NCBI RefSeq assembly: GCF_000317125.1 | Contig: NC_019695.1 | Span: forward strand, 5,196,336-5,260,335 | Origin: Chroococcidiopsis thermalis PCC 7203 | GTDB lineage: Bacteria > Cyanobacteriota > Cyanobacteriia > Cyanobacteriales > Chroococcidiopsidaceae | Reading direction: 5' to 3' | Length of the DNA stretch: 64,000 bases | Shown: positions 40,123 to 50,695 of the stretch, one piece after another | Layout: each line of letters starts with the position of its first letter | Position numbering within the stretch: the first letter of the stretch is position 1 | Translations under genes and position numbers: made by a program | Notes under the pieces: model-generated | What the model saw: only the letters and a program-made list of their open reading frames with translations | The model's database searches: none | What the model was told of the DNA's origin: nothing

Positions 40123-41487
40123 TTACATAGGTTGAACGCCAGGAATCCAGTCTGTCCCTGCCAGGGGAAGACGTGCCATCGCAGCAGCCTCGATCGTCAA
40201 CGCGACGAGATCCTCCCGTTCTAAGTGATGCACGTTTTGCTTCCCGCAAGCACGGGCGATCGTGGTTAGTTCCATATTCAGAGTTTGCAGATAGTTTTTG
40301 ACTCGCCGAGCGCCAACTTCTGGTTCCAAGCGTTTCTCCAAAATTTCGTCTTGGGTTGTCACTCCCACAGGACACTTTCCGGTGTGGCAGTGGTGGCAGT
40401 AACCTGGTGCTGTGCCGATCGCCGTATAGTCTTCTATTGCCGAATGATGCGTCCCCTTTTGCACGTAAGTTTCACTGTTGCAGCCCAACGCCATCAGAAT
40501 TGCTTGACCGATCGAAACCGCATCTGCACCCATCGCGATCGCTTTAGCAACATCGGCTCCCGTGCGAATGCCACCTGAAACAATTAGTTGTACCTCACCT
40601 TTCATATTCATGTCTTCCAGGGCATCCACCGCCTGCCGCACTGCTGCCAGGGTGGGAATACCAACGTGTTCGATAAACACGGTTTGCGTCGCCGCAGTCC
40701 CCCCTTGCATCCCATCGACGACCACGACATCCGCTCCGGCATGAACTGCCAGCTTGACATCGTTAAAAGTTCGTGATGCACCCACTTTGACAAAAATCGG
40801 TTTTTCCCAATCGGTCAATTCGCGTAATTGCTGAATTTTGATAGTTAAATCGTCGGGACCCGTCCAATCGGGATGACGACAGGCAGAGCGCTGATCCACA
40901 CCCTCTGGTAAAGTCCGCATCTGGGCAACACGGGGATTAATCTTCTGTCCGAGTAACATCCCGCCACCACCTGGTTTTGCCCCTTGACCTACCACAATTT
41001 CGATCGCATCTGCTTTGCGCACGTCGTCAGGGTTGAAGCCGTAGCGAGAAGGCAGACATTGATAAATTAAGGTTTTTGAAGACAGCCGTTCCTCCGTTGT
41101 CATGCCACCATCCCCAGTTGTGGTAGAAGTCCCGACTGCGGTTGCCGCACGTCCCAGGGCTTCCTTGACATTAGCCGATAGCGAACCAAAACTCATTCCC
41201 GCGATCGCGATCGGAATCTCCAATTGAATCGGTTTCTTGGCGTAGCGAGTGCCGAGAATTGTCTTGGTAGTGCATTTTTCCCGATAGCCTTCCAACGGAT
41301 AACGGGACATGGACGCACCCAGAAACACCAGATCGTCAAAATGCGGCAACCGACGTTTTGCGCCCAAACCGCGAATTTCGTAAAGACCGTGTGCCGCTGC
41401 GTTTTGAATGTAGTTGAGAATACGGCGATCGTAACCCCAGGATTCTTCGCGAGAGATAGATTGATGCGATTGAGACGGCAGATTCAT
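40123..41487 (-). CDS. mgsC: FMN-binding glutamate-synthase-like subunit, N-methylglutamate synthase MgsC
   Basis: The protein has 454 residues, the FMN-barrel half of glutamate synthase without the other GltB domains. Key parts: SFGSLSANVKEALGRAA, TTTGDGGMTTEERL, KPGGGGMLLGQKI, VVVVDGMQGGTAATQ, SGGIRTGADVAKAIAMGADAVSIG for the flavin phosphate site, and HHCHTGKCPVGVTTQ with the 3Fe-4S cysteines. In the N-methylglutamate pathway MgsABC turns gamma-glutamylmethylamide (or methylamine plus glutamate) into N-methylglutamate. Standing alone beside separate amidotransferase (mgsA) and GXGXG (mgsB) genes is the hallmark of this split enzyme. It is last of the eight genes. A rhizobial GlxD-like name fits the same family. 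Confidence 0.88.
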   Translation of the reverse strand: MNLPSQSHQSISREESWGYDRRILNYIQNAAAHGLYEIRGLGAKRRLPHFDDLVFLGASMSRYPLEGYREKCTTKTILGTRYAKKPIQLEIPIAIAGMSFGSLSANVKEALGRAATAVGTSTTTGDGGMTTEERLSSKTLIYQCLPSRYGFNPDDVRKADAIEIVVGQGAKPGGGGMLLGQKINPRVAQMRTLPEGVDQRSACRHPDWTGPDDLTIKIQQLRELTDWEKPIFVKVGASRTFNDVKLAVHAGADVVVVDGMQGGTAATQTVFIEHVGIPTLAAVRQAVDALEDMNMKGEVQLIVSGGIRTGADVAKAIAMGADAVSIGQAILMALGCNSETYVQKGTHHSAIEDYTAIGTAPGYCHHCHTGKCPVGVTTQDEILEKRLEPEVGARRVKNYLQTLNMELTTIARACGKQNVHHLEREDLVALTIEAAAMARLPLAGTDWIPGVQPM

Positions 41488-41523
41488 GATTAATACTTTA
41501 ATTTTAACGATGGGTGGTAATTA

Positions 41524-41548
41524 GTAATTGGTAATTGGTAATTGGTAG
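41524..41548. repeat. Heptamer tandem repeat (GTAATTG)
   Basis: Three perfect copies of GTAATTG plus a partial one, in the mgsB-mgsC gap. Same type as the tandem repeats at 55261-55302, which read as the complement (ACCAATT). Confidence 0.85.
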
Positions 41549-41555
41549 TTTTTTC

Positions 41556-41660
41556 TCCCTTGTCTCCCTTGTCTCCCCCCCTCTCCCTTGTCTCCCCCCC
41601 TCTCCCTTGTCTCCCCCCTCTCCCTTGTCTCCCCCCTGCTCCCTGCTCGTGCGCTCCCTA
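41556..41660. repeat. CTCCCTTGT / CTCCCCCC low-complexity tandem repeat
   Basis: Pyrimidine-rich array made of TCTCCCTTG units with extended C-runs, followed by CTCCCTACTCCC. It fills the gap from mgsB to mgsC and runs into the last codons of mgsB. The strand asymmetry (all pyrimidine on plus, all purine on minus) is complete over about 90 bases. Confidence 0.85.
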
Positions 41661-42353
41661 CTCCCTTTCTTCATTCCAGTGATAGAGTTGCTTGGCGGAA
41701 GCAACCCGTTTGAAATCTTGGGGATTGTGGGAAAAACCTGCTTTTGCTAATAGCTCGGCTACGGTTGCATAATCAGCTTCAGACATGGGTTCGAGTTGAG
41801 CATCAGCACCGAGCGATTTAATGCTACCTCGGACGTAAATTACGGCTTCGTAAAGCGAATCTCCCAGTGCTTCCCCTGCATTTCCACAGACTACAATCCG
41901 TCCAGCTTGTGCCATGAATGCGGCAAAGCTGCCCACACTGCCACCGACAACAATATCTGCTCCTTTGAGCGAAATGCCGCAACGCAGGCTGGCATCACCA
42001 TCAATAATTAATAACCCCCCGTGGGCGGAGGCTCCAGCAGAAACCGAGGCAAAGCCTTTGACATGCACCCGACCGGACATCATGTTTTCGGCAACACCCG
42101 TTCCTACATTCCCGGCGATCGTCACGTTTGCTAGCTGGTTCATGCTTGCCGCATAGTAGCCTGCATGACCGAGGATTTTTACCTCAACCGGAGCATTCAG
42201 TCCCACGGCAATATTATGCGCTCCATCAGGGTTGAGGATCTCGATCGCTTGTCCCCCAGTTTGAGTCAGGTTGTGATGCAGGTAGTGATTGACTGCGCGT
42301 AGTGGGGTTTGGGCGAGGTCGAATGTCACCTTTTCCATAGTTACACCGTCCAT
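41658..42353 (-). CDS. mgsB: GXGXG-domain subunit, N-methylglutamate synthase MgsB
   Basis: The protein has 231 residues and is the stand-alone GXGXG beta-helix domain of glutamate synthase. Repeating GxxGxxG turns are seen: IAGNVGTGVAENMMSGRVHVKG, LIIDGDASLRCGISLKGADIVVGGSVG and IVVCGNAGEALGDSLYEAVIYVRGSIKSLG. In glutamate synthase this domain is a structural scaffold between amidotransferase and FMN barrel. It overlaps mgsA by 13 bases (or starts at the second ATG, 42338). Its last codons and TAG stop lie inside a GAGTAGGGAGC repeat unit, so its C-terminus may have been reset by repeat growth. Confidence 0.88.
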   Translation of the reverse strand: MDGVTMEKVTFDLAQTPLRAVNHYLHHNLTQTGGQAIEILNPDGAHNIAVGLNAPVEVKILGHAGYYAASMNQLANVTIAGNVGTGVAENMMSGRVHVKGFASVSAGASAHGGLLIIDGDASLRCGISLKGADIVVGGSVGSFAAFMAQAGRIVVCGNAGEALGDSLYEAVIYVRGSIKSLGADAQLEPMSEADYATVAELLAKAGFSHNPQDFKRVASAKQLYHWNEERE

Positions 42354-43231
42354 ACGTATAACTCTTCCGGTGCGGGTTCGTAGAGATGGGCGTTTTTAAC
42401 ATCGGGTAGGTGTGCTAGAGAGCGAAATTCCGAGGCGATCGCCACATAGTCATCAGTTTCAGCAACCACCGCAGGTTTACAGGCAAAGGCATCCCGCACC
42501 AGAGCGAGTTTGTCTGCCGTTCCCATCAGAAATGTATAAAAGCCGTCTAACTCGACAAAGCCTTGTTTAATTGCGGTTTCTAAATCGTCCCCTTCCCGCA
42601 TCCGCCATTCCAAAAAGCGACAAGCTGCTTCCGTGTCGTTGTCGGTTTCAAAGTGAATCCCAAGCGGTTCTAAACGACGACGAATCGAGTAAGGATTGGA
42701 AAGAGAACCGTTATGCACTAGGCAAAAATCTTCTCCCGCCGTAAACGGGTGTGCGCGATCGGGAGTCACTGCTGATTCTGTTGCCATGCGGGTATGGGCG
42801 ATCGCGTGAGAGCCTTTCAGCGTTGAGAAATTGTAGCGCTCGGCTACCATAGCAGGTTTCCCCGTGTCTTTGTAGAGATCGATCGTCCGACCTGTTGACA
42901 ACAGGTGCAGGTTTGGATGTTTTGCTTTCAGCCATTGCTTGACGCGATCCGGTTCTCGATCCGAAGTTAGCACTGCCCGATTGCCATCGATCTCAATCTC
43001 AGGTGTAGTCCCGAAAACAGCTTGAAACGATCGCCTCAAATCCCAATCGAATTTGTCTTTTGAATAGAGGCTGTATTTGCGATGCGGCTCTGGCAGCGTA
43101 GCAGTAAATACAGCAAGTCCAGCAGAGTCGGGTCCGCGATCGCTCATGCCAATCAGCATGGGAACCATGAGTTCGCCAAGCGATTCTCGCCATTCTGGTT
43201 TTTTAATTAGTAGTCCGACAATTCCACACAC
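42341..43231 (-). CDS. mgsA: Class II glutamine amidotransferase subunit, N-methylglutamate synthase MgsA
   Basis: The protein has 296 residues. The GTG at 43231 makes Cys2 the second residue (MCGIVGLL), so the N-terminal nucleophile is exposed after Met removal, as in GltB and PurF. Other family segments: MSDRGPDSAGLAVF, GSHAIAHTRMATESAVTPDRAHPF, FCLVHNGSLSNPYSIRRRL and FETDNDTEAACRFLEW. In the N-methylglutamate pathway this subunit is proposed to handle the amide of the gamma-glutamyl donor. About 200 bases with a palindromic repeat separate it from gmaS. Confidence 0.88.
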   Translation of the reverse strand: MCGIVGLLIKKPEWRESLGELMVPMLIGMSDRGPDSAGLAVFTATLPEPHRKYSLYSKDKFDWDLRRSFQAVFGTTPEIEIDGNRAVLTSDREPDRVKQWLKAKHPNLHLLSTGRTIDLYKDTGKPAMVAERYNFSTLKGSHAIAHTRMATESAVTPDRAHPFTAGEDFCLVHNGSLSNPYSIRRRLEPLGIHFETDNDTEAACRFLEWRMREGDDLETAIKQGFVELDGFYTFLMGTADKLALVRDAFACKPAVVAETDDYVAIASEFRSLAHLPDVKNAHLYEPAPEELYVWTV

Positions 43232-43448: not shown

Positions 43449-44777
43449 TTAGAAAAACTCCAAGTATCGTTCCACTTCCCACTGCGAAACATGACGCATA
43501 TATTCCACCCATTCCATTCGTTTCAAGTTAATAAATTCATTTGCCAACACGCCCAACGCACCTTTGATGACTTCATCTGATTCCAGAGCGGCGATCGCTT
43601 CGTGCAAGCTCTGGGGTAAAGTGCGAATACCCTTGTCTTTAAGGTCTACCTCCGATAAATCGTACAAATTCAAGTTATAGGGTTCGCCAGGATCGATTTC
43701 TTTATCAATGCCATCTAATCCAGCAGCGATCGCGGCAGCAGTGGCAAGATAAGGATTGCAGGAGCCATCGGCAAGCCGCAGTTCTAAGCGTCCGCTGGGA
43801 ATCCGTACCATGCTGGAACGATTGTTGTCGCCGTAGGTGATGTAAGCTGGAGCCCAAGTTGCACCGCTGAGCGATCGCCCCACGACGAGCCGCTTATAGG
43901 AATTAATCGTTGGGGCGCAGATAGCAGTGAGTGCTTCGGCATGAGCGAGTAAGCCACCCAGAAAATGATACGCCAGTTTCGAGAGTCCTAAATGCCGCGA
44001 GTCGTTGTCGTCAGCAAATAGATTCGAGCTGCCATCGCTTATGGACATATGAATGTGCATTCCCGTACCCGTGCGGTTGGCAAACGGTTTCGGCATGAAC
44101 GAGCAAATTAGTCCCAGTTCTTTAGCAATTTCTGACGCTGCCATTTTGAAAAAGATGTAGCGATCGGCAGTCGTGAGGCAGTCGGTGTAGGTATAGTTAA
44201 TCTCAAACTGTCCGTTAGCATCTTCGTGGTCGATTTGATAAATGTCAAAGCCAGCTGCTTGCAGGTGAGTGACGAGTTTTTCCAGAAAAATCGCACTGCG
44301 CGACAATCCGCGAAAGTCATAGCAGGGTTTCTCCAAGGTATCGGTAGCATCAAACGGGTAAATCTGCCCCCGTTCGTCTTTACGAAGTAAGGCAAATTCT
44401 GGCTCGACTCCGGTATTAAGCGTCCAGCCTCGCTGCTGCAATCGCTCGATCTGCTGCATCAAGATATAGCGAGCATCGTAAGGGTAAGGTTTGCCTTTAA
44501 CGTGACCGACACAAGCAATTCGCGCAAATCCAGGCATCCAGGAAACGAGCGATAGAGTTGAGAGATCGCCAACTGCCATGTAATCTGGACTGTGCGGCTC
44601 CATACCCAATCCCCACACCGCAAATCCGGCGAATCCGGCTCCTGGATGCAAAATATCTTCAAAGTGAGCCACGGGTACGGCTTTGGTTTTCGCAACTCCA
44701 TGAATATCGACAAATTGCGCCAGCACGAACTTGACTTGATGCGATTCGAGAAATGTTTTGGCTGCTGCTAAATTCAT
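43449..44777 (-). CDS. gmaS: Glutamine-synthetase-family gamma-glutamylmethylamide synthetase (GmaS)
   Basis: About 442 residues from the ATG at 44777, which has GGAG eight bases upstream; a TTG at 44810 is possible. It is of the GlnT/GS-III-like group: N-terminal [31 protein letters not shown] with the metal-binding Glu pair, [30 protein letters not shown] with the metal-binding His, NSYKRLV, and [21 protein letters not shown]. In the N-methylglutamate pathway GmaS ligates methylamine to glutamate using ATP. That assignment rests on gene context, since the sequence class also includes ordinary GlnT proteins. Confidence 0.87.
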
Positions 44778-44833
44778 CCGATTGGCTCCAGGTTGACTCG
44801 ATCTGTTCAAATTTCATGAATAGAGTAGCTTTG

Positions 44834-45487
44834 TCACAAAAATGATTCTGTGCCGATCGCGCCACCTCCTAACTCTGTAGCAATTTGAACCAGGGTTTGC
44901 CAAAAATACGTACCAAACGTGCGATCGCACCAGACGCGAATGCATAACTTTCTCTCGATGTCAAGCGGGATAACGGTGACTGTGACACCAATTGCATTAG
45001 TCAAAACGACCGGACGATCGCCAAGTGATAATGCCTGAAAATTAAAGCTACAGGTTTGGCGTAAAAGCTCGTTGACGCGATCGCCCACTAGTCCTAAAGC
45101 GAGATCTTGCCGTAAAACCGGGTAAACTTTTGCGGGTGGAGACTTACAGGCAGTTGCTAACTGGGGAGCGATCGCGCTGTTGAGGCTATCTTCGATTAGA
45201 AATTCGGTCAGTCCCAACCGAGCAATAATCCCACCTTCGGGTAAGGGATGCCAAGTATTAGGGCGATCGGGAATTGGCAGTTTGCGATCGGCTAACCATT
45301 GGGCTGCATTCGCTCCTTTCACACCAAAGCGGGTCAAAAATGACAGATCGGCAATCCCTAACACAGAAACAGACTGGCGATCGCCTGGTAGCTTTACTAA
45401 GGAAGGCATACCGTTAGTGTCGCACCACACACCGTTAAGCGACTGGAGTGAATCGTGAATTGGACTCAGACGCAAAGGAGTATTCAT
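44834..45487 (-). CDS. mgdD: Sarcosine-oxidase gamma-like subunit, N-methylglutamate dehydrogenase MgdD
   Basis: The protein has 217 residues. It is of the SoxG family (GcvT-like fold): VSVLGIADLSFLTRFGVKGANAAQWL near residue 40 and ARLGLTEFLIEDSL later. It overlaps mgdC by 4 bases, so stoichiometric translation is likely. In heterotetrameric sarcosine oxidases the gamma chain helps form the cavity that leads to the folate site. It is the fourth gene in the unit and precedes gmaS. Confidence 0.85.
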   Translation of the reverse strand: MNTPLRLSPIHDSLQSLNGVWCDTNGMPSLVKLPGDRQSVSVLGIADLSFLTRFGVKGANAAQWLADRKLPIPDRPNTWHPLPEGGIIARLGLTEFLIEDSLNSAIAPQLATACKSPPAKVYPVLRQDLALGLVGDRVNELLRQTCSFNFQALSLGDRPVVLTNAIGVTVTVIPLDIERKLCIRVWCDRTFGTYFWQTLVQIATELGGGAIGTESFL

Positions 45488-48384
45488 GCGATCGCCTCCT
45501 GGCGTTGTGCCGTTTCTTGCTGGCGTTGGTTTTCAGGGTCGTAGAATGGTGTGGGACTGACTGTTGCCTTAACGAGTGCGCCATCAGATAAACGAATCGA
45601 AATGCGATCGCCGATCGCCCCTAATTCTGGTTTGACGTAGGCAAGTCCGATATACTGCTGAAGCGTGGGACTAAAAGCAATACTGGTAACGCGACCTGCA
45701 ATTTCACCGCGATCGATGACCAAATGACACTCTTGGGGCGCAGTTCCTTGATTAGGGTCGAGCGTAAAACCAACTATCTTTTGCGCGATCGGTCGTTTAG
45801 CAATAGCTTGCAGGCTGCGCTGACCGATGAAAAATGGCTTATCTAATTTAACCGCCCATCCTAAATTAGCCTCCCTCGGAGTTGTCAAACCATCGGTATC
45901 TTGACCGACAATCAAATGTCCTTTTTCCAACCGCAAAAGCCGTTGTGCTTCCACGCCAAAGGGCGCAATCCCGTAAGCCTTACCTGCGGCGAAAAGAGCA
46001 TCCCAAACAGCCGGAGCCGACTCAGCCGCAACGTGAATTTCGTAACCCCACTCGCCTACAAAACCAACTCGGATTAAAATCGCTTCAATTCCCGCCACCA
46101 ATGCTTCTCGTACAGCCAAGTAGGGAAAAGCAGCACTGGAAAGATCGCAATCCGTCAGTTGTGCCAAGACATCGCGAGCATAAACTCCAGCAAGGTTCAT
46201 TGCCGATCGCGCTCCAGTTAAATTTACCAAACCGCAATCTAACCCCCACATCGTATTCAGCCGCGACAGTTCTCGGTAAATCGTCGCTGCACCGGAAGTC
46301 GTCGTCGTGAAATAAAAATGCTCGGCTCCCAGTCGCGCAATGACACCATCGTCAATAATTATGCCTGTCTCGTCTAGCATCAGTGCATAGCGCGACATCC
46401 CCAATTTCAAATTGCTGTAGCGTCCAGTGTAAACTCGCTCTAAAAACTCGGCAGCATCCGCCCCGCGCAATTCTAATTTTCCTAACGTCCCAACATCGAT
46501 CGCACCTACGCGAGTCCGCACGGCTTTCACTTCAGCCCGAATGCAATCTTCGCGGCTCTTTCCAGGTTGGGTGTAGAATTCAGGTCGTCGCCATACCCCT
46601 GCCAGCACGAACTCAGCACCCAAGGCAGCATGACGACTATGCAAAGGAGTATAGCGCTCTGGCGTAAAGCCCCGTCCGGCTAAGTGAGATAAGGGGACTG
46701 GATGAAAGAACGGTCGAGCGGTGGTTGTACCCACTTCAGCAGGAGATTTTCCCGTAATGCGTGCCAAAATTCGCAATGCATTCATGTTAGAGTGCTTACC
46801 CTGGCTCGGTCCCATGCCTACAGTGGTAAATCGCTTCAGCAATTCAATATTGTCAAATCCTTCCTGAATCGCATTCGGAAAATCTTTCAACTGAAGGTCT
46901 TCATCAAAATCGACAAAGTTCTTACCTGCTGGATGTTCTACGATCGCCCACGAATGTGAGGGGGATTCTGAACCAGAAGCGGCGGCGATTTCGACTGGTT
47001 CTGTCAATCCCAGAAAAGCAGCCGCCTCCAATCCCGCCCGACGACCATCGAGTAGCTTGCGATCGAATTCGTACACGCCATTCACCCGTCCGCAGGCAAA
47101 CACGCCCGTAGGTAAGCGATCGGGAACGAACTGTTGCAAGCCGTTATCGAAGCGCATTTTCGTTCCAGCTTGGGAGAGCAAATTTGCCGCGCCTGCCCAG
47201 CCGACACTCATAATCATCCCATCGCAGGCGATCGCTTGTTTGAATTCTGTCTGCGGTTTGCCGTTGGCATCAAGCGGACAAATTACCGCACCCGAAACGC
47301 CGTCACTTGCCGGATTCGTCTTGGCTTCGTAAATACAATGGCTGGTAAAAATGGGAATACCAAGCGCTTGTAAGGCTTGAGTAATTGAGTTAGTTGTGTA
47401 GGTCGATCGTAAATCCGCGATCGCCTTCACCTCAACGCCATGCTTTGCTAAATCTAAAGCAGCCTCATAACCATGACTGTTTGCTGTCAATACTACAGCT
47501 CGATGCATCGGTTTGACAGCATAGCGATAAATCAACCGTTGCGCTGCCGAAGCTAACATCACTCCTGGTAAGTCGTTATTGCGAAACACGGCAGGCTGTT
47601 CGTATGCCCCATTTGCCATGATGACCGCTTTTGCCCGCAATTTAGTCAGACGTTCTCGATCCACTAAGGGAATCCAGCGATCGGCATAATACGCAGCAGC
47701 TACAGTTTCGGTGTAAAGACGGATGCGATCGCAATTTTTAACTGCTTCCACGAGTTCTTGCGTCTGCGTCAATCGTTCGCCAGAACCGCCTGCCCTGGCA
47801 TTCTCATCCACAATCACTACATTTGCCCCTGCATCGGCTGCGGCTAATGCTGCTGACAATCCCGCCACACCTGCGCCAATGACTAGCACGTCGCAAAAAT
47901 CATACTGCTTTGCCGTGCGAATATGCGGTGTAGAGAAATCGACTTTGCCCAATCCGCTTAGATTGCGAATCGTGCGTTCCCAGAAGGGAAACAGTCGTTT
48001 ATTGTGAAAGGCTTTGTAGTAAAACCCGACTGGGAGCAGAGGCGAGAAAAAATCTAAAATGCTGTGGCGATCGCCCATCACTCCACCATGCGTATTCACC
48101 GCATACAGGGACATTCCCGCCTCTAATGGCGTGACATCGGCTCGGACGTTGAGCTGTTGCCCATTTTGCATCAAAGTATTAACATCGTGACTCGCCAAAC
48201 TCAAAATTCCGCGCGGACGGTGGTATTTGAAACTGCGTCCCAGTACTCGTTGTCCAGCAGCCCATAACGCACTGGCGATCGTGTCTCCGGCATAACCCCA
48301 AAAGCGATTTCCTTCAAAGGTGAAATCAATTCGCTGGCTGCGATCGATCCATTCACCGGAGATGGGAGGTAGGCGATTGCTCAT
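45484..48384 (-). CDS. mgdC: Sarcosine-oxidase alpha-like subunit, N-methylglutamate dehydrogenase MgdC
   Basis: The protein has 966 residues, normal for the family. Residues about 15-100 are the Fer2_4-like N-terminus (GYAGDTIASALWAAGQRVLGRSFKYHRPRG). Next is a dinucleotide-binding domain, DVLVIGAGVAGLSAALAAADAG near 170, and VILTANSHGYEAAL near 305. The C-terminal 370 residues are a GcvT-like aminomethyltransferase (GKLELRGADAAEFLERVYT, GARSAMNLAGVYARDVL, GFVGEWGYEIHV, RLEKGHLIVGQDTDG), the site where tetrahydrofolate would accept the oxidised methyl group. The product would be 5,10-methylene-tetrahydrofolate, or formaldehyde without folate. Confidence 0.9.
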   Translation of the reverse strand: MSNRLPPISGEWIDRSQRIDFTFEGNRFWGYAGDTIASALWAAGQRVLGRSFKYHRPRGILSLASHDVNTLMQNGQQLNVRADVTPLEAGMSLYAVNTHGGVMGDRHSILDFFSPLLPVGFYYKAFHNKRLFPFWERTIRNLSGLGKVDFSTPHIRTAKQYDFCDVLVIGAGVAGLSAALAAADAGANVVIVDENARAGGSGERLTQTQELVEAVKNCDRIRLYTETVAAAYYADRWIPLVDRERLTKLRAKAVIMANGAYEQPAVFRNNDLPGVMLASAAQRLIYRYAVKPMHRAVVLTANSHGYEAALDLAKHGVEVKAIADLRSTYTTNSITQALQALGIPIFTSHCIYEAKTNPASDGVSGAVICPLDANGKPQTEFKQAIACDGMIMSVGWAGAANLLSQAGTKMRFDNGLQQFVPDRLPTGVFACGRVNGVYEFDRKLLDGRRAGLEAAAFLGLTEPVEIAAASGSESPSHSWAIVEHPAGKNFVDFDEDLQLKDFPNAIQEGFDNIELLKRFTTVGMGPSQGKHSNMNALRILARITGKSPAEVGTTTARPFFHPVPLSHLAGRGFTPERYTPLHSRHAALGAEFVLAGVWRRPEFYTQPGKSREDCIRAEVKAVRTRVGAIDVGTLGKLELRGADAAEFLERVYTGRYSNLKLGMSRYALMLDETGIIIDDGVIARLGAEHFYFTTTTSGAATIYRELSRLNTMWGLDCGLVNLTGARSAMNLAGVYARDVLAQLTDCDLSSAAFPYLAVREALVAGIEAILIRVGFVGEWGYEIHVAAESAPAVWDALFAAGKAYGIAPFGVEAQRLLRLEKGHLIVGQDTDGLTTPREANLGWAVKLDKPFFIGQRSLQAIAKRPIAQKIVGFTLDPNQGTAPQECHLVIDRGEIAGRVTSIAFSPTLQQYIGLAYVKPELGAIGDRISIRLSDGALVKATVSPTPFYDPENQRQQETAQRQEAIA

Positions 48385-48396
48385 GCAACATTCTCC

Positions 48397-48654
48397 TCAC
48401 CGAATAAATAAATATAAGTAGGTACGCAAGACCTCATCAGTCAGCGTATTGCGCTCTGCAATAAACCAGGTATTACTTGGCGTATGACACCACCATTCCT
48501 GTTTAATTCCAGGTACGCTAGTGCGATTAAAGACGTACTCCGCCCACGTTGCATCGTCAACTGTTTGCGGATCGGGCATGGAGCGAACTTCCCCGCCACA
48601 GATAAACTCAGAAATCGGTCTTGTCCCGTTAATCGGACAGGTCATCATTTTCAT
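48397..48654 (-). CDS. mgdB: Sarcosine-oxidase delta-like subunit, N-methylglutamate dehydrogenase MgdB
   Basis: A small zinc-fold protein of 85 residues. It reads TCPINGTRPISEFICGGEV, where many sarcosine-oxidase delta chains have CPxCGxR; here Asn replaces the second Cys of that pair. The later WAEYVFNRTSVPGIKQEWWCHTPSNTWFIAERNTLTDEVLRTY is the conserved delta-chain tail, with one further Cys and a His as possible ligands. The variant CPxNG form is, as far as I recall, common in the N-methylglutamate dehydrogenase branch. It lies between mgdA and mgdC with short gaps of 2 and 12 bases. Confidence 0.87.
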   Translation of the reverse strand: MKMMTCPINGTRPISEFICGGEVRSMPDPQTVDDATWAEYVFNRTSVPGIKQEWWCHTPSNTWFIAERNTLTDEVLRTYLYLFIR

Positions 48655-48656
48655 CG

Positions 48657-49898
48657 TTAATGCCCCACTGATGCTGCACCCTTTTCACCCACCAACGCAT
48701 AATTTTTAAATCGATCGAGAGAGAATTTTGTAATTAATTCGTGAGTGCGATCGCTCGCCACGGTATACGCCATCGTTTTGCCACACACCGGAGTTGCCTT
48801 AAAGCCCCAAGTCCCCCAACCAGCATCGAGATAAAATCCCGCGATCGCGGTTTTACCCATAATTGGCGCAAAGTCAGGTGTCATATCTGCCATCCCTGCC
48901 CATTGCCGCACAACTTTAACGTGAGAGAGAAACGGAAAGAGTTCCAGCATATGCGCTGCTAATCCCTCTACAAAATCCAAGGTCGATCGCGTGGAATGTA
49001 ATTCATAAGGATCGAGTGAGGCTCCCATGACTAACTCTCCCCGTGCGGTTTGACTGACGTAGACGTGCAAGCTACCCGAAACAACGATCGGATCGAGCCA
49101 GGGTTTCATTGGTTCGCTGACCATTGCTTGTAATGGATGGACGTAAATGGGCGATCGCAGTCCTACCATTTGCAACAGGCGTGGTGTAAATCCGGCAACC
49201 GCACACAAGACTCGCGGTGTCGAAATGTTGCCGCGAGTTGTTTGTACTCCTGTCACTTTGCCCGATTCAACTTGAATACCCAAAACTTCTGTTTGCTGGT
49301 GAATTTCGACTCCCCGCCGATCTGCACCACGACCGTAACCCCACGCTACCGCATCGTGACGGGCAATGCTCCCGGGTGCGTGATAGAGTGCGCCCATGAC
49401 TGGAGCCTTGCCACCACACGTCAAATCCATGTGCGGGCAAGCTTTTTTAATTTCATCCGGCTCGACTAATTCGCTCTCAATGCCGAAATGCTTGTTAACC
49501 TCCGCCCGCCAGCGCATCGTTCGGATTGCAGAGTCAGTATGAGCGAGCGTGAAATGTCCCCGCGTGGAATAAAACAAATTCAGGTCAAAATCTTGCGCTA
49601 AGTCTTGCCAGAGTCGCAGCGATTCATCGTAAAACTTTACGCCTTCTGGGGTGAGATAGTTGGAGCGAATAATCGTCGTGTTGCGTCCCGTATTTCCGCC
49701 GCCAAGATAACCTTTTTCGAGAACAGCTATATCGGTCATGCCATAATCTCGCGCCAGATAATAAGCGGCTGCCAGTCCGTGTCCGCCTGCACCAATGATG
49801 ACAGCATCGTAATTTGGTTTGAGGCGATCGCGATGGCGGAACATTGCGGGTTCTGGATGCTGCTTCGCCAGCGCAAATTTCAGCAGATTCAGAGGCAT
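48657..49898 (-). CDS. mgdA: Sarcosine-oxidase beta-like subunit, N-methylglutamate dehydrogenase MgdA
   Basis: A DAO-family flavoprotein of 413 residues. YDAVIIGAGGHGLAAAYYLARDYG near residue 30 is the FAD fold; AVLEKGYLGGGNTGRNTTIIRSNYL is the conserved beta-subunit segment that follows; TPDFAPIMGKTAIAGFYLDAGWGTWGFKATPVCGK is the C-terminal FAD signature. It oxidises the N-methyl amine to the imine. It is the first gene of the unit: its ribosome binding site (AGGAA, seven bases upstream) overlaps the palindrome at 49906-49918, so a bound regulator there could also affect translation start. Confidence 0.9.
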   Translation of the reverse strand: MPLNLLKFALAKQHPEPAMFRHRDRLKPNYDAVIIGAGGHGLAAAYYLARDYGMTDIAVLEKGYLGGGNTGRNTTIIRSNYLTPEGVKFYDESLRLWQDLAQDFDLNLFYSTRGHFTLAHTDSAIRTMRWRAEVNKHFGIESELVEPDEIKKACPHMDLTCGGKAPVMGALYHAPGSIARHDAVAWGYGRGADRRGVEIHQQTEVLGIQVESGKVTGVQTTRGNISTPRVLCAVAGFTPRLLQMVGLRSPIYVHPLQAMVSEPMKPWLDPIVVSGSLHVYVSQTARGELVMGASLDPYELHSTRSTLDFVEGLAAHMLELFPFLSHVKVVRQWAGMADMTPDFAPIMGKTAIAGFYLDAGWGTWGFKATPVCGKTMAYTVASDRTHELITKFSLDRFKNYALVGEKGAASVGH

Positions 49899-49900
49899 CG

Positions 49901-49971
49901 TAAGTTTCCTGACAGGAACCTTTGCTGAATATCATGCATCAAAGATTTCTGGGTGTCAACAAAGTTTCCTG
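49901..49971. promoter_or_regulatory. Candidate operator array of the methylamine unit
   Basis: In the 152-base gap between mgdA and its divergent regulator are four related 11-mers: TAAGTTTCCTG (49901), an inverted copy reading AAAGGTTCCTG on the minus strand (49913-49923), AAAGATTTCTG (49941) and AAAGTTTCCTG (49961). The first two form the palindrome TTCCTG-A-CAGGAA (49906-49918). The direct copies are spaced by 40 and 20 bases, near whole turns of the helix. A binding site for the XRE-cupin regulator is inferred. No perfect NtcA site (GTA-N8-TAC) was seen in the gap. Confidence 0.6.
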
Positions 49972-50050
49972 CTATGATTCAAAACGATGTAAGGTGAAAT
50001 GGTAGCCAGCGCTGTTTCTCTACACTGCTCCCATACTATGAGGTAAGCGC

Positions 50051-50695
50051 ATGACAGATGCTACGGCAAATGGACTGGAGCGTTCCCAAGTACCAGCCGT
50101 CGATCCGCTCGAACGCTACATCGGCAGTACGATTCGAGAAATGCGTCAAAAACTCGGACTCACCATTGCTGAAATTTCGGAACAGACGGGAATTTCGCGG
50201 GGGATGTTGTCCAAGATTGAAAACGCTCAAACTGCTACGAGTTTGGAAACATTGACCAAAATTGCCCGTGCTTTAGGTATTTCCCTGTCAGCCTTCTTTC
50301 GCAATTACGACGTACCCACAGGCAGCGCCCAGCATGTGAAAAACGGTGAAGGGATGGAAGTCGTGCGTCGCGGTACAAAGCGAGGACATACCTATCACCT
50401 GCTAGCATACGATCGCGGTTCGACAAAACTATTTGAGCCTTTTCTGATCGCTATGGATGACGCTTCCGAAGTGTTTCCCACCTTCGAGCATCCTGGGGTT
50501 GAGTTCATTTATATGCTGGAAGGAAAGCTTGAATACCGTCACGGACAATCAACTTACTTACTAGAACCTGGTGACGCATTGACTTTTCGCGGTGATATTC
50601 CTCATGGTCCTGAAAAACTGATCGAGTTACCGATTCGCTTTCTTGCGATAATTCACTATGCCACATCTGATGGCGATCGCATGAGTAGGGAGTAG
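50051..50695 (+). CDS. XRE-cupin transcriptional regulator
   Basis: The protein has 214 residues. Residues about 25-80 are a helix-turn-helix, IREMRQKLGLTIAEISEQTGISRGMLSKIENAQTATSLETL, followed by KIARALGISLSAFF. Residues about 130-200 are a cupin: HPGVEFIYMLEGKLEYRHG, YLLEPGDALTFRGDIPHGPEKL, with His and Glu residues that could bind a metal and a small effector. This is the PuuR-type architecture that controls amine and polyamine use. It is divergent from mgdA and so the likely local regulator. Its final codons and stop fall within a GAGTAGG repeat (50683-50696). Confidence 0.92.
   Translation: MTDATANGLERSQVPAVDPLERYIGSTIREMRQKLGLTIAEISEQTGISRGMLSKIENAQTATSLETLTKIARALGISLSAFFRNYDVPTGSAQHVKNGEGMEVVRRGTKRGHTYHLLAYDRGSTKLFEPFLIAMDDASEVFPTFEHPGVEFIYMLEGKLEYRHGQSTYLLEPGDALTFRGDIPHGPEKLIELPIRFLAIIHYATSDGDRMSRE

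Follow-up and report, generated by a model that had tools for sequence, protein, structure and literature searches.

A phased array of TTC-N7-GAA dyads at the mgdA promoter and a candidate XRE-cupin regulator of the N-methylglutamate operon in Chroococcidiopsis thermalis

In Pseudomonas aeruginosa the XRE-cupin proteins PauR, PsdR and ErfA are local inhibitors that act at palindromic sites beside their own genes, and XRE-cupin proteins of this species are thought to quit DNA on sensing a pathway metabolite (PMC7901475). The cyanobacterial system described here resembles them in its palindromic sites, its own-gene neighbourhood and its place in small-molecule metabolism; it differs in that their consensus varies among the three, that they serve other pathways, and that the excerpted text of that paper mentions no phased multi-site arrays (PMC7901475).

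PuuR, the XRE-cupin repressor of the gamma-glutamylated putrescine pathway in Escherichia coli, likewise joins a helix-turn-helix to a cupin domain and regulates locally, and by annotation its cluster holds a glutamate-amine ligase and a gamma-glutamylamine oxidase, a chemistry that parallels the operon studied here. However, it shares 21% identity with our regulator, which scores 44.5 bits against a cut-off of 211 with the NCBIfam PuuR model and so falls short of the score that marks a PuuR equivalog. The idea, suggested by a PuuR consensus, that the E. coli operator is the same motif was not borne out by a scan of the puu region, where our matrix (below) finds a best site of only 3.2 bits.

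Arrays of operators are familiar from phages of the lambda and 434 type, in which HTH_3 proteins occupy a row of neighbouring operators at intervals of roughly two helical turns. Our regulator has weak sequence similarity to the 434 repressor; the array described here differs in being metabolic rather than phage, in being paired with a cupin-containing protein, and in having up to four sites over divergent promoters.

For the pathway itself, TmaR of Ruegeria pomeroyi is an AraC-type activator of the mgd and gmaS-mgs genes in Roseobacters, the same genes that our candidate regulator would control, but it comes from a different protein family (PMC13390433). The text of a study of M. universalis reports a 6-10-fold rise on methylamine of the methylamine genes together with a putative regulator from the same cluster, whose family the text does not state; the q-values of the pathway genes in Table 3 of that paper are 0.65-0.75 (PMC5023235). 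Such a rise would fit relief of joint repression, though as evidence it is weak. An XRE-family gene is among those recurring in methylamine clusters in a Rhodobacteraceae paper (partial text; PMC7574528), and a term search of a Methylobacterium paper on the N-methylglutamate pathway returned no mention of a regulator (PMC5023228). Within the open-licence literature, outside which most subscription papers lie, we found no paper on the operator or on control of the pathway in cyanobacteria.

An N-methylglutamate operon beside an XRE-cupin gene

The window, that is the whole 64,000-nucleotide (64-kb) stretch of C. thermalis DNA that was analysed, contains the following genes around the gap of interest.

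40123..43231, minus strand: mgsA, mgsB and mgsC-like genes (amidotransferase, GXGXG and glutamate synthase domains)
43449..48654, minus strand: mgdB, mgdC and mgdD (soxD-, soxA- and soxG-like) and a gmaS-like glutamine synthetase gene (profile matches)
48657..49898, minus strand: mgdA (soxB-like), first gene of the N-methylglutamate operon (DAO domain; 478 bits with TIGR01373 soxB, below the cut-off of 529)
49899-50050: gap between mgdA (minus strand) and the XRE-cupin gene (plus strand)
50051..50695, plus strand: XRE-cupin regulator gene (HTH_3 and Cupin_2, Pfam matches above cut-off)

From its start at 49898 on the minus strand, mgdA is followed by the soxD-, soxA- and soxG-like genes, the type III glutamine synthetase-like (gmaS-like) gene and three mgsABC-like genes. 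With the soxA, soxB, soxD and soxG models the window proteins score below the respective cut-offs, while the gmaS-like protein passes the gln_synth_III model at 645 against 469.6. Judged by gene content, with putative mgdABCD, gmaS and mgsABC all present, this is a complete N-methylglutamate operon. Close mgdA genes (E up to 1e-120) have a patchy distribution, occurring in only 29 of 291 sampled genomes of the cyanobacterial class and in 21 of 131 genera. The regulator has the domain order of an XRE-cupin transcription factor, an N-terminal HTH_3 (62.1 bits, cut-off 23) and a C-terminal Cupin_2 (41 bits, cut-off 27.2); among the matches listed, its closest named relatives are cyanobacterial.

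The TTC-N7-GAA dyad as the repeated unit

A sequence-only reading of the gap had described four related 11-mers, with direct copies 40 and 20 bp apart and a first, inverted pair forming TTCCTG-A-CAGGAA. All four lie where that reading placed them:

49901-49911, plus strand: 11-mer 1, 1 mismatch to AAAGTTTCCTG
49913-49923, inverted: 11-mer 2, 1 mismatch
49941-49951, plus strand: 11-mer 3, 2 mismatches
49961-49971, plus strand: 11-mer 4, 0 mismatches

The two spacings were reproduced on re-measurement, and the first pair indeed reads TTCCTG-A-CAGGAA at 49906-49918. The 64-kb window holds 40 matches to the 11-mer with up to two mismatches and four with up to one; three of these four are inside the gap, and the array is the window's densest 71-bp span. 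A motif-agnostic count finds no 11-mer family in the gap larger than four members, a size never reached in 300 dinucleotide shuffles of the gap (largest family of one in 70, two in 211 and three in 19). Genome-wide, AAAGTTTCCTG has six exact matches, so that the bare 11-mer is not specific, and 251 matches with up to one mismatch against 95 for a reversed control, which makes it 2.6 times commoner.

The unit was sought in relatives. Regulator orthologues were found in 8 of 19 genomes of the family, the window genome counted, and these loci with 80 from named genomes (among the matches listed) gave a set of 88, window included, that splits into 33 cyanobacterial and 55 proteobacterial loci. Fifteen of the 88 (5 cyanobacterial, 10 proteobacterial) were dropped when no divergent mgdA or purU was recognised beside the regulator, as were 13 of the remaining 73 that were more than 85% identical to a kept locus, leaving 60 distinct gaps, 23 cyanobacterial (window included) and 37 proteobacterial.

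These gaps were scanned for TTC-Nk-GAA, with k from 0 to 15, against shuffles. Only k = 7 stood clearly above them, with 59 sites spread over 35 of the 37 gaps from proteobacteria (shuffles: mean 2.5, sd 1.5, maximum 7) and 15 sites in 15 of 23 cyanobacterial gaps (mean 1.7, sd 1.3, maximum 6), an enrichment that is partly after the fact, above all in the proteobacteria, because the dyad had first been noticed by eye in the same gaps. Cleaner tests of the dyad are the Comamonas-type loci and the O1-anchored count given below. The repeated element of the gaps is the 13-bp dyad TTC-N7-GAA. The sites of the sequence-only reading are real and phased, but their unit is this dyad; the 11-mer was discarded as a binding unit because 11-mers 1 and 2 form one dyad, the spacer scan picks TTC-N7-GAA, and the bare 11-mer is common genome-wide.

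The scan found no exact TTC-N7-GAA dyad in 8 of the 23 cyanobacterial gaps, and two of the 15 cyanobacterial dyads (L025, L028; L numbers denote loci) are out of register and look like expected chance matches. At k = 12 the cyanobacteria have five sites, the same as the largest shuffle. In two cyanobacteria with purU first (L020, L022) the left half of the first site seems, by eye, to be shifted to give TTC-N12-GAA, the same spacer as the only other one near the shuffle maximum.

A symmetrised 23-bp matrix was built from the 59 proteobacterial sites only; in it the seven middle bases of the dyad are weakly conserved, at about 0.1-1.0 bit each. Across 63,978 positions of the window it places the dyad centred on 49912 first (17.5 bits) and that on 49972 fourth (11.6 bits). 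Between them rank 30670, within a long gene, and 25629, within a called open reading frame but possibly ~20 bp upstream of where a glycosyltransferase-like gene really begins, so the window scan alone would not single out the second of the two gap sites. A whole-genome pattern scan for further sites was uninformative: allowing one mismatch, it gave 2,139 matches, and the reversed control 1,919. Like other XRE-cupin factors, our regulator would have palindromic sites beside its own gene, in the window and in orthologous gaps alike.

Four phased positions on the mgdA promoter

Two further, poorer positions complete an array that overlies the promoters of the gap.

49906..49918, centre 49912: O1, strong dyad TTCCTGACAGGAA (matrix rank 1, 17.5 bits)
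49926..49938, centre 49932: O2, degenerate TGAATATCATGCA, overlapping the mgdA -10 (-6.1 bits, rank 924)
49947..49959, centre 49953: O3, weak TTCTGGGTGTCAA (1.7 bits, rank 85)
49966..49978, centre 49972: O4, dyad TTCCTGCTATGAT (rank 4, 11.6 bits)
49931..49959, minus strand: mgdA promoter, TTGACA (49959-49954), 17-nt spacer, CATGAT (49936-49931), 10 of 12 matches
49973..49978, plus strand: likely -10 of the regulator gene, TATGAT (by eye; similar letters in cyanobacterial gaps; no good -35)

The centres of O1 to O4 are spaced 20, 21 and 19 bp, 60 bp in all, so that the array has several sites at whole helical turns. The phasing claimed by the sequence-only reading stands, with a step of about 20 bp and four positions, one of which (49932) was missing from its list. 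O1 consists of 11-mers 1 and 2; O3 has its left half within 11-mer 3 and its right half on the mgdA -35; O4 has its left half within 11-mer 4, and its right half overlaps the regulator's likely -10.

The mgdA promoter is the sole promoter-like pair returned by a promoter scan of 49850-50110, and mgdA transcription should therefore start near 49924; the regulator's TATGAT is absent from the output of that scan. Relative to this promoter, O1 covers the predicted first transcribed bases and the mgdA Shine-Dalgarno, O2 the -10, and O3 the spacer and -35, while O4 lies just upstream. The -35 letters GTCAA are present in the gaps of most relatives. O2 and O3 are poor matrix matches that overlap promoter hexamers, and part of their conservation is for that reason owed to the promoter. 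The sites sit, phased, on the promoters of both genes, as had been expected for a dimeric XRE-cupin protein.

The phasing recurs in relatives. Distances were taken between all sites no more than 90 bp from each other. Of the cyanobacterial pairs, which come from seven gaps outside the training set (the window among them), 8 of 9 are separated by 19-22, 39-42 or 59-62 bp, and of the pairs in the proteobacterial training set 73 of 88 are; a uniform distribution would put a fraction of 0.15 there. The earlier anchored alignments, including the one made with this count, had their anchor partly picked by O2-like letters, which makes their O2 columns circular. We therefore anchored on the first exact dyad alone, using gaps with such a dyad and enough sequence on either side (14 of 23 cyanobacterial, 31 of 37 proteobacterial). 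At +20 the right half reads GCA in 9 of the 14 gaps from cyanobacteria and 22 of the 31 from proteobacteria, and the left half reads TTC in 0 of 14 and 13 of 31. TTC is found at +40/41 in 8 of 14 and 2 of 31 and at +60/61 in 8 of 14 and 16 of 31; at other offsets it occurs at most 2 times in cyanobacteria and at most 3 times in proteobacteria. Thus both groups keep O2, chiefly its right half, and only the cyanobacteria keep O3. In some relatives all four positions score well (L063, spaced 20, 21 and 20 bp; L046, 20, 22 and 20 bp). The comparison of orthologous gaps that the sequence-only reading had proposed accordingly finds the sites kept in two phyla.

The register is not absolute, since there is a second spacing class with 53 bp from the second to the last site in L074, L083, L084, L094 and L095, and 54 bp in L077. 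In the gap of L027, O1 and O4 are 73 bp apart rather than 60, and the 13 extra bases resemble a second O2. At L014 an HNH-type open reading frame, identified by eye at 541-1509 in regulator-forward orientation, is inserted in the gap and separates O1 from the regulator.

Six mutually related Comamonas-type loci, all outside the training set, have the regulator upstream of mgdA in tandem on the same strand. In 6/6 the best two sites of the whole locus are exactly 20 bp apart and lie before mgdA, at about 47 and 67 bp, indicating that the array belongs to the mgdA promoter and not to the divergent layout. The dyad, its spacer, phasing, conservation and place on the mgdA promoter are direct results of these computations.

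The array also keeps to the first gene of the operon, lying before mgdA, or before purU where purU leads. In many relatives, though not in the window, a purU gene (formyltetrahydrofolate deformylase, recognised by its N-terminal motif) lies between the regulator and mgdA and leads the divergent operon; this is the arrangement at 9 of the 33 loci from cyanobacteria and 38 of the 55 from proteobacteria (for instance L018 and L060). Sites occur ahead of other genes as well, the names of which are our reading of translations. In L197 two sites 62 bp apart (between 2073 and 2336) precede a glnK-amtB pair downstream of a regulator homologue, and in L199 one or more precede mgsA. Extra strong dyads are found near 6148 in L045 (13.0 bits, some 30 bp upstream of a gene for an APC-type permease) and near 6108 in L052 (13.3 bits). 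From their translations these look like pathway or uptake genes, and the L045 permease is a possible regulon member.

A candidate regulator and its reach

Taken together, the results suggest that the gap probably holds a phased four-site operator array to which the adjacent PuuR-like XRE-cupin protein binds cooperatively, repressing the N-methylglutamate operon and itself. The binding protein, its cooperativity, repression over activation and the ligand we infer as follows. Dimers of the XRE-cupin protein are predicted to occupy O1 and O4, the strong sites at either end, and would fill the degenerate O2 and O3 between them with the help of neighbours on the same face of the DNA. Four cooperating dimers would cover the mgdA promoter from about -55 to +20 together with the regulator's -10, and this coverage would repress both the methylamine (N-methylglutamate) operon and the regulator gene. 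The cupin domain may sense a pathway metabolite (methylamine, gamma-glutamylmethylamide or N-methylglutamate), leading to release.

The same protein could instead bind the dyads as an activator, with O4, near -48 of mgdA, recruiting RNA polymerase and O1 tuning the response. In many relatives O4 does lie a similar distance upstream of the -35, TmaR activates the pathway in Roseobacters (partial text; PMC13390433), and the putative regulator of the M. universalis methylamine cluster is reported in the text to rise with the operon (PMC5023235). However, the mgdA promoter is near consensus (10/12, 17-nt spacer) and should need no help, O1 to O3 lie on or after the core promoter, and the XRE-cupin relatives covered by the excerpted text of PMC7901475 are inhibitors. 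We consider activation unlikely.

That the sites belong to another protein, such as a nitrogen or C1 regulator, with the XRE-cupin gene merely adjacent, we likewise regard as unlikely. In its favour is L121, where an array precedes mgdA (2739-2892), a methyltransferase-like gene takes the regulator's place, and no regulator was found in the genome (96% complete, 5% contamination). Against it, cyanobacteria and proteobacteria have this dyad in common and also share the regulator (64-78% identity for the proteobacterial loci, among the matches listed), and a second dedicated regulator common to both phyla would seem less likely. The helix-region sequence SRGMLSKIENAQTATSL is, moreover, unchanged among the window protein, those of two other cyanobacteria and seven of the proteobacterial orthologues displayed; it is altered in the seven more distant of the 14 non-cyanobacterial homologues displayed and strongly altered in PuuR. 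In L161, one of these seven, the helix region differs and the dyads and array are still present.

Regulator and array also tend to occur together. Of 89 loci of the mgdA type, 4 had too little sequence upstream and were left out; the 28 bearing a regulator (a hit of more than 50% identity in the locus) have a median best score of 11.1, and the other 57 one of 1.4 (Mann-Whitney p 2.4e-8), a weak test in that loci are related, the 28 include the window and two training loci, and some repeat earlier loci. It is weakened further by the fact that 24 of the 32 genomes picked for probing hold a regulator homologue somewhere; a site of at least 8 bits within 1.5 kb before mgdA is present in 7 of these 24 and in 0 of the 8 without one. 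No array was found near the regulator homologues of L078, L080, L190-L193 and L196, and at most array remnants near those of the cyanobacterial loci L035 and L038. In L078, L080, L192 and L193 the homologue follows what by eye is the end of mgsC, and its promoter may therefore lie further off. Since protein and array usually travel together, linkage alone is no proof of binding.

The sequence-only reading had drawn attention to the overlap of the first pair with the mgdA Shine-Dalgarno, and a plausible one, AGGAAA (49910-49905, minus strand), does lie within the O1 dyad. The overlap is incidental, because the distance to the start codon varies and the leader fold is ordinary: the O1 centre is 9 (L039) to 86 bp (L012) from the start codon in relatives, with some at 9-16 bp, others at 20-30 and a few beyond 50 (L012, L046, L047, L058), and leader RNA folding showed nothing unusual (z 0.34 and -0.02). 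An RNA hairpin of TTCCTG-A-CAGGAA that masks AGGAAA in the predicted leader was rejected on these fold scores and distances, and with the dyad's seven middle bases so weakly conserved we give it next to no probability. Chance repeats in a short gap have a negligible probability too, for although the genome has many copies of the bare 11-mer (6 exact, 251 near), 0 of 300 shuffles gave a family of four and conservation across phyla already refutes them.

In summary, repression by the adjacent XRE-cupin protein is the reading we prefer. Beyond it, we judge the chances about even that one cis-trans code, in which an XRE-cupin protein whose recognition helix is well kept is matched to TTC-N7-GAA sites in four steps of 20 bp, runs methylamine use in both phyla, moved between them with the operon, and forms a small regulon that in some lineages adds purU, glnK-amtB and an amine permease. 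The XRE-cupin regulator, the palindromic operator and the phased array are known kinds; what is new, as far as the open-licence literature shows, is the operator itself, the casting of its regulator as a candidate switch for the N-methylglutamate pathway, and the operator's conservation across phyla.

With two strong and two degenerate sites, the array makes a good test case for cooperative binding. If the proposed repression is true, it would name a switch of the N-methylglutamate pathway outside the Roseobacters controlled by TmaR, provide an operator that can be searched for, and suggest how some cyanobacteria control their use of methylamine.
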